This document shows positions 42,802-46,550 of a DNA stretch of 64,000 nt, in pieces. The position numbers and the translations under genes were made by a program. Within the stretch, counting starts at the first letter, position 1, and each line of letters starts with the position of its first letter. This DNA comes from Arcicella rosea (GTDB lineage Bacteria; Bacteroidota; Bacteroidia; Cytophagales; Spirosomataceae): assembly GCF_014204325.1 (NCBI RefSeq), contig NZ_JACHKT010000027.1:1-64000 (forward strand), given 5' to 3'. The notes beneath the pieces were generated by a model that searched no databases, was not told the DNA's origin, and worked only from the letters and a program-made list of their open reading frames with translations.

Positions 42802-42834
42802 GGAATTAGCCATTTACTTACAAAATACTTGTTT

Positions 42835-43893
42835 ATGAAGAAACTATTAATCACTGGCGGAGCAGGATTCATTGGCTCACATGTTGTCAGACTATTTGTT
42901 ACGAAATACCCCGATTATCAAATTTTCAATTTGGATAAATTGACTTATGCTGGTAATTTGGAGAATTTGAGAGACATTGAAAATCAACCTAATTATACTT
43001 TTGTAAAAGGTGATATTGTTGATGCTAGTTTCATCGACGCTTTATTTGCTGAACATCAGTTTGATGGGGTTATTCACTTAGCTGCTGAATCTCATGTTGA
43101 TCGTTCTATTTCTGAACCAATGGCTTTTGTCATGACCAATGTTGTAGGTACTTGTAATTTGTTGAACGCTGCTAAAAATACTTGGAAGGCATCTGGTTAT
43201 GAAGGTAAGCGTTTTTATCATGTTTCTACGGATGAAGTGTATGGAGAATTACATAATCCAGAAGATTTCTTTACAGAAACAACTCCTTATGACCCTCGTT
43301 CTCCTTATTCTGCTTCAAAGGCTTCTTCTGACCACTTTGTAAGAGCTTATGGTAATACTTATAAATTGCCAGTTGTGATTACGAATTGCTCTAATAACTA
43401 CGGACCAAATCATTTCCCTGAGAAATTATTGCCATTAATGATTCACAATATCTTGAACAACAAACCTCTTCCTGTTTATGGAAAAGGTGAAAATGTAAGA
43501 GATTGGTTATTTGTTGTTGACCATGCTAGAGCCATTGATACAGTTTTTCATGAAGGAGTACTGGGAGAAACTTATAATATTGGTGGCTTCAACGAATGGA
43601 AAAATATTGACATCGTTAAATTAGTTTGTAAAACGATGGACAGCAAACTTGGAAGACCAGAAGGTACTTCAGAGCAATTAATCACTTATGTAACTGACCG
43701 TGCTGGACATGATTTGAGATACGCTATCGACGCTACAAAAATTATGAACGAATTAGGCTGGAAACCATCTTTACAATTTGAAGAAGGGCTTGAAAAAACA
43801 GTAGATTGGTTTTTGAACAACCAAGAATGGCTTGATAATGTTACTTCGGGAAATTATCAAAAGTATTACGATTCAATGTACACAAACCGATAG
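42835..43893 (+). CDS. rfbB: dTDP-glucose 4,6-dehydratase
   Basis: The 352-aa SDR enzyme makes dTDP-4-keto-6-deoxyglucose for deoxysugars such as rhamnose. The cofactor motif is ITGGAGFIGSH, the catalytic region is VSTDEVYGEL and the YxxxK motif is SPYSASKASSDH; RfbB-specific NCSNNYGPNHFPEKLLPLMI follows. An in-frame TTG six bases upstream was rejected in favour of ATG 42835. Only two bases separate its stop from the start of an unrelated ATPase gene, so the operon continues through the inserted pair to rfbA. Confidence 0.96.
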   Translation: MKKLLITGGAGFIGSHVVRLFVTKYPDYQIFNLDKLTYAGNLENLRDIENQPNYTFVKGDIVDASFIDALFAEHQFDGVIHLAAESHVDRSISEPMAFVMTNVVGTCNLLNAAKNTWKASGYEGKRFYHVSTDEVYGELHNPEDFFTETTPYDPRSPYSASKASSDHFVRAYGNTYKLPVVITNCSNNYGPNHFPEKLLPLMIHNILNNKPLPVYGKGENVRDWLFVVDHARAIDTVFHEGVLGETYNIGGFNEWKNIDIVKLVCKTMDSKLGRPEGTSEQLITYVTDRAGHDLRYAIDATKIMNELGWKPSLQFEEGLEKTVDWFLNNQEWLDNVTSGNYQKYYDSMYTNR

Positions 43894-43895
43894 AA

Positions 43896-44963
43896 ATGAG
43901 AATTAAAAGTTTTTCATATAAGGAAGATTCTTGGGAAATCAAAGACCTTAATCTTGAAGCAATTAATTTATTAGTTGGTCAGAATGGTACTGGTAAATCA
44001 AGAACTATTTCTAAAATTGATAGATTCGTTAAGATACTTACTCAGCAAGAAAAAAGGTTTGAATCAGAAGAATGGTCAATTGAGTTTATGACCATTGAAA
44101 ATGAAATCTTACGTTATGAATTAAAAACATTAAAGACTAAGAATGAAGTTGTTAAAGAGATATTATTTTACAATAATGATATTATATTAGAAAGAAAAAG
44201 AGGAGAATCAACATTTAAGATTAGGAAAGATTCGAAATCTAAATGGGATACATATTCTCCACCATCCCAGAAATTAGCAATTTATTCTATAAATGATATT
44301 CTTAAATACCCTCAAACTGCACAGATTCTAAATTGGGCCGAAAACTCATATGGCTTTGAATTTAGTTTTGCGACTAAATTTGCCTTCCTAAGAGGGGAGT
44401 TTTTAAATGTTACTGGAGATATTCCTGACTTGTTTGATTTACTATCAAAAAAACAAAGGAATACTGTCATCGAAAATCTAAATGTTATTGGATTTAAAAT
44501 TGATGATATTGAGGTTAAAAATCTACCATCATCTGATAAAAACTTTTTATTGATTAATGAAAAAGACTTAAAGTACTTAATTTATCATGATGACTTATCA
44601 CAGGGGATGTCTCGGGCTCTATCTTTAATTATTTATATTGAGTATTTGATAAGTCGTAAAAACCCTGCGACAATAGTTATTGATGACTTTGGAGAAGGTC
44701 TAGATTACATTAGAGCAAAAGAACTTGGAAAGCTTGCTTTTCAAAGATGTTTAAAAAAGAATGTTCAGCTCATTGCAACAACAAATGATAGTTTTTTAAT
44801 TGATGTCATCAAAATTGACTATTTGAATATCTTAAAAAGAGATGGTAAAATTGTAACATCATTCAATAAAACTAACAATCCAAAATTATTTCAAGAGTTT
44901 AAATATACTGGTCTTTCTAACTTTGATTTCTTCTCATCTGATTACATTGATAGCCATCTATGA
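43896..44963 (+). CDS. ABC/OLD-type ATPase of a two-gene system
   Basis: The 355-aa protein has a Walker A motif GQNGTGKS (28-35), an ABC-like signature LSQGMSRALS (234-243), a Walker B region IVIDDFGEGLD (260-270) and a switch-like TTND (295-298). The Walker B lacks the usual DEP sequence, having Asp263-Asp264 followed by FGEGLD. This is the compact SMC/OLD-like ATPase type found in defence systems such as PARIS, AbiL/RloA and Septu. It overlaps the next gene by four bases (ATGA), so the two products are coupled. Its sequence is AT-richer than the flanking genes. Target and trigger are unknown. Confidence 0.85.
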   Translation: MRIKSFSYKEDSWEIKDLNLEAINLLVGQNGTGKSRTISKIDRFVKILTQQEKRFESEEWSIEFMTIENEILRYELKTLKTKNEVVKEILFYNNDIILERKRGESTFKIRKDSKSKWDTYSPPSQKLAIYSINDILKYPQTAQILNWAENSYGFEFSFATKFAFLRGEFLNVTGDIPDLFDLLSKKQRNTVIENLNVIGFKIDDIEVKNLPSSDKNFLLINEKDLKYLIYHDDLSQGMSRALSLIIYIEYLISRKNPATIVIDDFGEGLDYIRAKELGKLAFQRCLKKNVQLIATTNDSFLIDVIKIDYLNILKRDGKIVTSFNKTNNPKLFQEFKYTGLSNFDFFSSDYIDSHL

Positions 44964-45682
44964 AAAAAGTAGCAATATTTGTTGAAGGACATTCAGAGTT
45001 GATTTTTGTAAGAGAATACTTATTAAAGAAGTTTGAATATCAAAATATTGATTTAGAATGTAGAACACTTTTTAGTGATAATAAATTATTAAAGACTGAC
45101 TATGATGTTCCCAATACTGATGCAACTCATCATTTTCAAATTATAAATGTGGGCAGTGATTCAACTGTGATTACAAGAATTCTTAAAAGAGAACATCTAC
45201 TTTGGAACGCTGGATATGATAGGATTGTTGGGCTACGTGATATGTACTCAGATGAATATAAAGAAGCAATGGGGCAACCTCGTGAAATAAAACCATTGAT
45301 AAATGAAAAATTTATCAATGGTTTTAATCAAACTATAAAAACGAGAGCAATCAAACCTAACAATATTTACTTTTGCTTTGCAATCATGGAATTAGAAGCA
45401 TGGTTATTAGGTATTCCTAAACTCTGGAAAAATAAAGGTATAACCAGAGCTATAATTCTTGAAAAATTAAATATCGACTTCTTTAATACCGACCCAGAGA
45501 CTATCTTCCTCCATCCTACGGAAATTATAAAAAGTATTTTAGCCTTAATTGGTGAACAATATGATAAACATGGGCATGAGGTAAATTCTTTTTTAAGCTA
45601 CATTCAAAAGGAGGATTTTGAAGATTTAGAAAATAGTCAAAAATGTAATTCATTCAAATGCTTTGCAAAAGCTATAAATTAA
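44960..45682 (+). CDS. TOPRIM/DUF4276-like protein, partner of the ATPase
   Basis: The 240-aa protein starts [20 protein letters not shown], the TOPRIM first strand and helix with the catalytic-type Glu9. Asp94 in [11 protein letters not shown] sits where the TOPRIM DxD strand is expected, and a conserved-looking MELEAWLLG (143-151) resembles the EFEAL motif of DUF4276 proteins. [10 protein letters not shown] (185-194) follows. TOPRIM proteins beside ABC ATPases act as nucleases in anti-phage systems (AriB, RloB/AbiLii, OLD), so an effector nuclease role is inferred. It is also an alternative DUF4435/RloB relative. Seven bases separate its stop from rfbA. Confidence 0.75.
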
Positions 45683-45689
45683 AAATACA

Positions 45690-46550
45690 ATGAAAGGAAT
45701 TATTTTAGCAGGTGGTTCGGGGACTCGTCTTCATCCATTAACCTTGGCAGTAAGTAAACAATTAATGCCTGTTTACGATAAACCGATGATTTACTATCCA
45801 CTTTCAATTCTGATGTTGGCGGGTATTAAAGAAATCTTAATTATTTCAACTCCTCACGATTTACCACATTTCAAAAAGCTTTTGGGAGATGGTTCACAAG
45901 TGGGTTGTAGATTTGAATATGCAGAACAACCTTTACCAAACGGATTAGCTCAGGCTTTTGTAATTGGAGAAGAGTTTATCGGTGATGATAAAGTAGCCTT
46001 AGTTTTAGGAGATAATATTTTCTACGGAAGTGGATTAAGTAAATTACTTCAATCTAATAATGACCCAGAAGGTGGTGTAGTATATGCCTACCAAGTTCAT
46101 GACCCAGAAAGATATGGCGTAGTAGAATTCGATGATGATTTCAATGTACTTTCTATTGAAGAAAAGCCTTTGAAGCCAAAATCAAATTATGCAGTTCCAG
46201 GTTTGTATTTTTATGATAACTCAGTGGTTGAAATTGCTAAAAATATCGCACCTTCACCAAGAGGAGAATATGAAATTACGGACGTAAACAAAGAGTACTT
46301 GAAACAAGGAAAATTGAAAGTTGGTGTATTGAACAGAGGAACTGCTTGGTTAGATACTGGAACTTTTGTTTCGTTAATGCAAGCAGGACAATTTGTACAA
46401 GTCATCGAAGAAAGACAAGGATTAAAAGTAGGTTGTATTGAAGAAGTAGCTTATAGAATGGGATTCATTGACGAAGAACAACTCAGAAAAGTAGCGGAAC
46501 CACTAGTTAAAAGTGGTTATGGGAAATATCTTTTGGGGTTGCTGAAATAA
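45690..46550 (+). CDS. rfbA: Glucose-1-phosphate thymidylyltransferase
   Basis: The 286-aa enzyme makes dTDP-glucose from dTTP and glucose-1-phosphate, the substrate of RfbB. The nucleotidyltransferase signature is [12 protein letters not shown] (7-18), followed by [18 protein letters not shown] and the metal-binding GDNIFYG; EEKP and GTAWLDTGT are also typical. Normally rfbA and rfbB are adjacent; here they are separated by the ATPase/TOPRIM pair. rfbC and rfbD are not in the window. The gene ends at a strong terminator. Confidence 0.96.

Follow-up and report, generated by a model that had tools for sequence, protein, structure and literature searches.

Genes A and B, which lie between rmlB and rmlA in a 64,000-nucleotide stretch of Arcicella rosea DNA (the window; contig 27 of a 5.3-Mb genome), probably constitute a mobile immune module of two genes, of the ATPase-plus-TOPRIM kind, that forms a class of its own, with A predicted to restrain a putative nuclease, B. 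A two-gene abortive-infection system directed against phages is the most likely function. On sequence criteria, the pair represents a class apart from canonical DUF4276 pairs, with HEC-01, AbiL and PARIS as its relatives. Its members are sporadic in distribution, AT-rich and subject to purifying selection.

The features of the locus are collected in Table 1. Both reading frames are intact and overlap by ATGA, and the pair is separated from rmlB by 2 bp and from rmlA by 7 bp, so that the ORF coordinates confirm the layout and spacing described in the original prediction, a model's reading of the bare sequence. Each motif named there (GQNGTGKS, LSQGMS and IVIDDFGEGLD in A; Glu9, Asp94 and MELEAWLLG in B) is found in the translations, and the flanking nucleotide-sugar genes are, as it had said, undamaged: both are full-length and strongly matched in Pfam, and rmlB is 91–95% identical across seven other genomes of the genus. 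The figures given for AT-richness are also correct, with 11 of 60 bases being G or C at 44,161–44,220 vs 23 of 60 at 43,261–43,320. Over their whole lengths, A (28.2% GC) and B (29.3%) rank second and third lowest among the window's 49 ORFs of 150 aa or longer, the window as a whole having 33.1%. Sigma-70-like promoters and Bacteroidetes −7 motifs both occurred at chance level. A perfect hairpin, with 17 bp and a loop of 5 bases, lies inside gene B at 45,288–45,326 and was matched in 3 of 1000 codon shuffles; all of the window's other perfect hairpins of at least 13 bp, ten in number, fall outside ORFs of at least 100 aa. The hairpin was rejected as a conserved element, as none of the 59 other pairs has one of at least 12 bp in A or B.

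Table 1 Features of the A-B locus in window coordinates
Feature	Position	Strand	Remarks
rmlB (rfbB), dTDP-glucose 4,6-dehydratase, intact left neighbor	42829..43893	+	Pfam GDP_Man_Dehyd 4.5e-99
Gene A	43896-44963	+	355 aa ORF; SMC/OLD-like ABC ATPase
Walker A GQNGTGKS, residues 28-35 of A	43977..44000	+	G33, K34 in 62/62 family members
Variable middle of A, residues 51-230, putative sensor region	44046..44585	+	identity contrast among Arcicella sister pairs
ABC signature LSQGM, residues 234-238 of A	44595..44609	+	S235 in 61/62, G237 in 62/62
Walker B + D-loop IDDFGEGLD, residues 262-270 of A	44679..44705	+	D263, D264, E267, D270 in 62/62
Asn-Asp, residues 297-298 of A, at switch-histidine position	44784..44789	+	N-D in 62/62
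Gene B	44960-45682	+	240 aa ORF; DUF4276-type, TOPRIM-like putative nuclease
E9 + E13 of VEGxxE in B, putative metal ligands	44984..44998	+	62/62
D94 of B, putative metal ligand	45239..45241	+	62/62; strand from AF2 model
E144xE146 of B (MELEAW)	45389..45397	+	62/62
K203 of B, invariant lysine, C-terminal helical part	45566..45568	+	62/62
rmlA (rfbA), glucose-1-phosphate thymidylyltransferase, intact right neighbor	45690..46550	+	Pfam NTP_transferase 8.3e-73

A is an SMC/OLD-like ABC ATPase. It scores above the Pfam gathering threshold for AAA_21 (33.7 vs 27 bits), and Foldseek matched its AF2 model (pLDDT 92.7) best to the retron Ec78 PtuA:PtuB:RT complex (3.6e-12) and to E. coli PtuA (4.8e-11), followed by Rad50/SMC heads at about 1e-10, with TM values of 0.42–0.55 over the best matches; these results support the earlier designation of A as an ABC/OLD-type ATPase. 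All 62 full-length members of the family carry the window-type signature D-D-x-x-E-x-x-D followed by N-D, as well as R273, and none of them has E264 or H270. For comparison, a canonical set of 18 was drawn from 30 PF14103 loci by requiring a recognizable B preceded by an ATPase of less than 420 aa. In contrast to the window type, the ATPases of this set have E264, P265, E266 and H270 in 18/18 and D263 in 17/18, and residue 297 is Gln in 16 and His in two. The Walker B that had been singled out as unusual is thus diagnostic of a separate class. As read from the alignment, Asp takes the place of the catalytic Glu and Asn that of the switch His in all 62 aligned members, and on account of these two substitutions ATP hydrolysis by A is probably slow, if it occurs at all.

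B is a remote but, by profile comparison, secure homolog of DUF4276 (PF14103), for which it exceeds the Pfam gathering score (35.1 vs 30.2 bits). When the B profile was aligned by hhalign to those of other families, 18 canonical DUF4276 proteins gave 98.8% (E 6e-17, 201 columns) and 18 OLD TOPRIM regions 49% over 28 columns; 21 RloB proteins gave 9.7%, close to the value for the rmlB negative control (8.6%; rmlA control, 0.1%). A combined DUF4276 profile reached 63% with the OLD TOPRIM regions (28 columns) and 40% with RloB (168 columns), while the two negatives stayed at 1.3% and 0.04%. In the AF2 model of B (pLDDT 95.7), E9 follows the strand formed by residues 2–8, and D94 is the last residue of the strand 88–94. 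The nuclease site of BpOLD comprises E400, E404, D455xD457, T506xE508 and K562 (excerpt of PMC6755086), and the invariant residues of B (E9, E13, D94, E144xE146 and K203) run in the order of that site, with a single Asp where classical TOPRIM has DxD. Foldseek searches of PDB and BFVD with the model returned no match at E up to 0.001; no named TOPRIM protein was among the 50 PDB matches listed, and the BFVD matches listed included just one putative DNA primase (E 0.058). A PDB sequence search with B reached E 0.089 at best, with unrelated names, and a PHROGs search gave no match. We describe B as TOPRIM-like, a term supported by the order of its invariant residues, and do not call it a TOPRIM protein. 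The original prediction of a TOPRIM/DUF4276-like protein accordingly stands in its DUF4276 part, while a TOPRIM fold was not recovered by Foldseek.

Against the models of known systems, the pair scored far below member level in PADLOC and above no cut-off in NCBIfam. The closest likeness is to the PADLOC candidate HEC-01, an ATPase (HEC-01A) with a DUF4276 protein (HEC-01B), which shares the two-gene order and the partner families, B being homologous over its length to canonical DUF4276. However, A scores 42.9 bits with HEC-01A vs 445–466 for three canonical A proteins, B scores 23.9 bits with HEC-01B vs 197–254 for four canonical B proteins, and the residues of the window-type signature differ from canonical E264-P265-E266, H270 and Gln or His at 297. 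At a limit of E 0.01, one HEC-01B model matched 47 of 49 relatives, though weakly (best E 1.4e-9). PARIS likewise has its ATPase (AriA) and TOPRIM-type protein (AriB) on separate genes, and the sequester-and-release logic described for it (excerpt of PMC12409363) resembles the one proposed here. In contrast to PARIS, A scores 48.7 bits with AriA, B has no AriB match and falls under DUF4276 rather than DUF4435 in Pfam, and the AriAB proteins encoded beside one relative pair (L083) have DEPEMYLH and TH. In AbiL/RloAB, too, an ATPase is joined by a small protein with an EG.xTE-type motif close to the N-terminus, but A scores 73.8 bits with AbiLi vs 262–350 for the 20 best genome matches, DE...H is present in 17 of the 18 AbiLi ORFs from 20 loci (one has no readable motif), and B has no AbiLii match besides its low RloB profile score; AbiLii was matched by 3/49 relatives (best E 0.0016). 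Septu and retron PtuAB provide the best structural matches of A, in PtuA and PtuA-containing complexes, whereas the partner here is DUF4276-type, B matches only HEC-01B models and no PtuB, and in the PtuA-like neighbor of L080 the motifs are DEIEAHLH and TH. OLD nucleases of classes 1–3 and 5 share the ATPase-plus-TOPRIM logic and the order of catalytic residues (excerpt of PMC6755086), but in classes 1–3 the two parts are fused rather than encoded by separate ORFs, and the window pair has a single Asp for DxD and a DD Walker B. The misfit to PARIS, AbiL/RloAB and fused OLD noted at the outset is borne out and extends to HEC-01. ABC-ATPase–TOPRIM modules as such are well described (excerpts of PMC12839542, PMC10568477 and PMC12796447), and Hma-embedded candidates are mentioned in general terms (excerpt of PMC12988326). 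In the literature searched, comprising sources other than bioRxiv, we found no mention of DUF4276, and no paper on HEC-01 was among the matches listed.

Seventy loci were found with B (L068–L137), with both genes full-length in 62, one only in six and neither in two. After three duplicates were dropped, A and B had the same order and strand in 59/59 pairs and the exact 4-bp overlap in 37 of these. The pair is rare at every level surveyed: B is present, counting the window's genome each time, in 8/222 genomes of the family (four of the eight close, at least 47%), 13/390 of the order and 3/395 of the phylum. The 49 genome loci are titled Bacteroidota, Bacillota, Chloroflexota, Pseudomonadota, Spirochaetota, Planctomycetota, Nitrospirota and Synergistota, titles that include many MAGs with possible binning error. 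Relatives also occur on seven contigs of a viral collection, and the phage records searched gave no match. A search of 291 order genomes with the A profile found 13 places at 309 bits or more, all 13 of which also have B, and six at 100–113 bits, which encode another ATPase (IDEFEN, in one case MDEFEN) with a small partner. The GC content of the pair is below the mean of the flanking ORFs in 46/47 loci, and dN/dS was 0.04–0.16 in the 11 of 20 gene comparisons with estimable dS, some of them near saturation. In the six weaker places (L278–L281, L283, L284), the DEFEN-type ATPase has GASGVGKT in five of six, and its small partner has VEG near the start in five and KGEKTE in one.

To compare the site among relatives, we searched 59 genomes, including the window's, for RmlB and RmlA and paired 50 of 60 RmlB matches with 48 of 56 RmlA matches. 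Among the paired matches, rmlB and rmlA lie on one contig and strand in 42 places, with a gap of at most 200 bp in 27 of them, and the largest gap, 1796 bp, is that of the window. Within the family, the gap is at most 200 bp in 23/32 places; of the larger ones besides the window, six hold rmlD, and two others measure 583 bp (G015) and 287 bp (G017). Five of the seven other genomes of the genus (G002, G004–G007) have rmlB-rmlD-rmlA without the pair, and in G001 the site is cut by contig ends, with rmlD before rmlA. The pair is present in G003 (L068) as rmlB–5 bp–pair–3 bp–rmlD and in Spirosoma sordidisoli (G225/L055/L081) as rmlB–5 bp–pair–38 bp–rmlA, and in L078 the arrangement is accC-pair-rmlB-rmlA. 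Most relatives have the junction without the pair; A and B are thus an addition to a site that is normally empty. Conservation of the pair at this position in all relatives, the finding that would have spoken for a part in sugar metabolism, was not seen, with an rmlB homolog more than 50% identical beside only 3 of 70 relative loci (L068, L078, L081); the pair is cargo, not sugar metabolism. The proteins encoded by the flanking genes are 81–92% identical between the window and G003 (62% for the Sfp-like one), against 45% for A and 52% for B; such strong divergence at one site fits either allele replacement or fast change. In a tree of 62 A+B pairs, the window and L068 are sisters (99/96) that L081 joins with weak support (65/96), and L078 is separate. 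A single clade of all four rmlB-linked pairs was rejected with L078 included (p-AU 0.0007), which implies at least two arrivals beside rmlB. The recurrence of rmlB was noticed after the fact, and the site may have been chosen by chance or by weak preference. No rmlD is present at the window locus itself, in contrast to the five other Arcicella genomes with rmlB-rmlD-rmlA. A second set, on contig 5 of the window's genome (144,896–149,721; L052), combines an ordinary 84-bp rmlB-rmlA junction with an rmlC-like gene, a GDP-mannose-dehydratase-like gene and a gene for an RmlD that shares 67% identity with the G007 protein.

The polysaccharide operon proposed as a habitat did not hold up as a general feature of the pair. 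Two further neighborhoods recall it: on a Bacteroides finegoldii plasmid, the pair lies in a polysaccharide operon, its neighbors being annotated as tyrosine-protein kinase and sugar transporter, and in L090 glf follows about 1.5 kb downstream. The neighbors of most other relatives examined look unrelated (ileS, pheA, hslV and hisD, by sequence reading), and the suggested link to phage receptors is unsupported. Tight embedding in operons was also rejected as a family habit: same-strand neighbors lie within 100 bp on both sides of 13/47 pairs (nearer 14/47, as the ORF caller missed rmlA beside L081), not significantly different from 26/146 single genes and 8/21 two-gene units. Among the families listed, defense neighbors were found in 5/28 loci, namely EcoRV-type (L073), short pAgo (L074), Septu-type (L080, sequence reading), AriAB (L083) and SoFic (L084), vs 1/20 random 8-kb Cytophagales stretches (112 proteins), where the single match was a CRISPR-Cas I-B locus. 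The scan covered 128 of 135 neighbor proteins, seven judged spurious or marginal being left out, and the best 25 of 75 and of 64 families; the count omits mad3-type ATPase matches (two and three members) and weaker matches in L070, L087 and L090. Enrichment in defense islands at 5/28 vs 1/20 is not convincing, and the pairs are mostly solo islets between housekeeping-type genes, without consistent defense islands. One sister-clade pair (L111) lies beside BREX-like genes (sequence reading).

The middle of A is hypervariable in a sister subfamily. Among three Arcicella sister pairs that share one chromosomal site (G001, G004, G005), residues 51–230 are 27–51% identical vs 89–100% for residues 231–355, and dN is 0.43–0.52 in the middle vs 0.01–0.05 in the C-terminal part. 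Both dN and dS are raised in the middle, which suggests cassette exchange. Between the window and L068, identity is 27–29% in the middle and 60–65% after it. The contrast is strongest in the Arcicella trio (3 of 14 comparisons) and is weak or absent in L079–L084, L087–L092 and similar pairs. These data suggest that the middle is a swappable sensor, a designation given mainly because of its hypervariability, mostly in the sister subfamily. The sister-clade pair occurs in four Arcicella genomes (L048, L049, L050, L260–L263), in three of them with an M1-peptidase-like gene (sequence reading) on one side and, on the other, a conserved gene encoding about 170 aa, one tested example of which had no Pfam match. 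A window-type pair (L077) also follows an M1-peptidase-like gene.

By analogy with PARIS, in which AriA holds AriB until a phage trigger and the released AriB cuts tRNA (excerpt of PMC12409363), and with retron PtuAB, which depletes tRNA-Tyr (excerpt of PMC11555353), A and B may work by restraint and release. A would bind ATP, hydrolyzing it slowly if at all, and keep B inactive in a complex. Recognition of a foreign trigger by the variable middle of A would change the ATP-bound complex so that B is freed or activated; as a metal-dependent, TOPRIM-like nuclease, B would then cut tRNA or DNA and halt the infected cell. The rmlB-rmlA junction would serve as a landing site that gives co-transcription, with no role in rhamnose synthesis.

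The pairing itself would also suit an addiction or stress module of toxin-antitoxin type, in which A restrains the nuclease B for selfish persistence and any effect on phage is secondary. The presence of B with A in 13/13 places and the mostly solo islets between housekeeping-type genes, without consistent defense islands, are in keeping with it. We nevertheless regard it as unlikely: the sensor-like hypervariation of the middle of A, seen in one sister set, points to a changing antagonist, and the pair is readily absent from relatives, a loss that such a module should resist. Slightly less probable still is a housekeeping-type factor for DNA repair or replication conflicts, built of a Rad50/SMC-like ATPase and a nuclease. 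The resemblance of A to Rad50/SMC and the precedent of the class 5 OLD protein Cran1, which acts in the cell cycle and apparently not in defense (excerpt of PMC12796447), speak for it, but the pair is rare and patchy, AT-rich in 46/47 loci, and held by records of several phyla and of a viral collection.

A part in the synthesis or regulation of dTDP-rhamnose or surface polysaccharide, for which the position beside rmlB in the window, L068, L081 and independently L078, the Bacteroides finegoldii operon and glf in L090 could be cited, seems very improbable given how few relative loci have an rmlB homolog nearby, the unrelated-looking neighbors elsewhere and the many family genomes whose junction lacks the pair. 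We give the least credence of all to a degenerate, non-hydrolyzing relic that has lost its ATPase function: the changes of catalytic Glu to Asp and of His to Asn would be as expected, but the changed residues are invariant in 62/62, dN/dS is low and the reading frames in the window are intact. We thus favor the two-gene immune module. A fuller version of it, offered tentatively, is that the pair represents a widespread class of immune pairs that existing models do not describe, in which slow turnover makes A an ATP-loaded latch, a recombining central cassette sets which phage trigger is seen, and a bare two-gene islet inserts among housekeeping genes, twice independently beside rmlB.

The pair adds to the ATPase-TOPRIM immune systems a clearly bounded candidate class that is recognizable by a short residue signature. 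The tested PADLOC and NCBIfam models score it poorly, so that candidates may have gone unannotated in sequenced genomes. With the usual catalytic residues invariably lost, the role of ATP in such switches becomes a direct question, and the apparently exchangeable middle of A offers a natural allele series for trigger mapping.

Three kinds of ATPase-plus-small-partner pairs, at least five pairs in all, are present in the window's genome. A canonical DUF4276 pair with the Walker B CLDEPEMGLH lies on contig 12 (125,134–126,920; L258), likewise inside a row of biosynthetic genes, flanked on one side by a SerA/SerB-like gene (2-hydroxyacid dehydrogenase plus HAD part) and on the other by a SerC-like gene (class-V aminotransferase). 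Contigs 1 and 12 (L177, L232, L253, L257, L259) also carry three adjacent AbiLi/RloB-type pairs.
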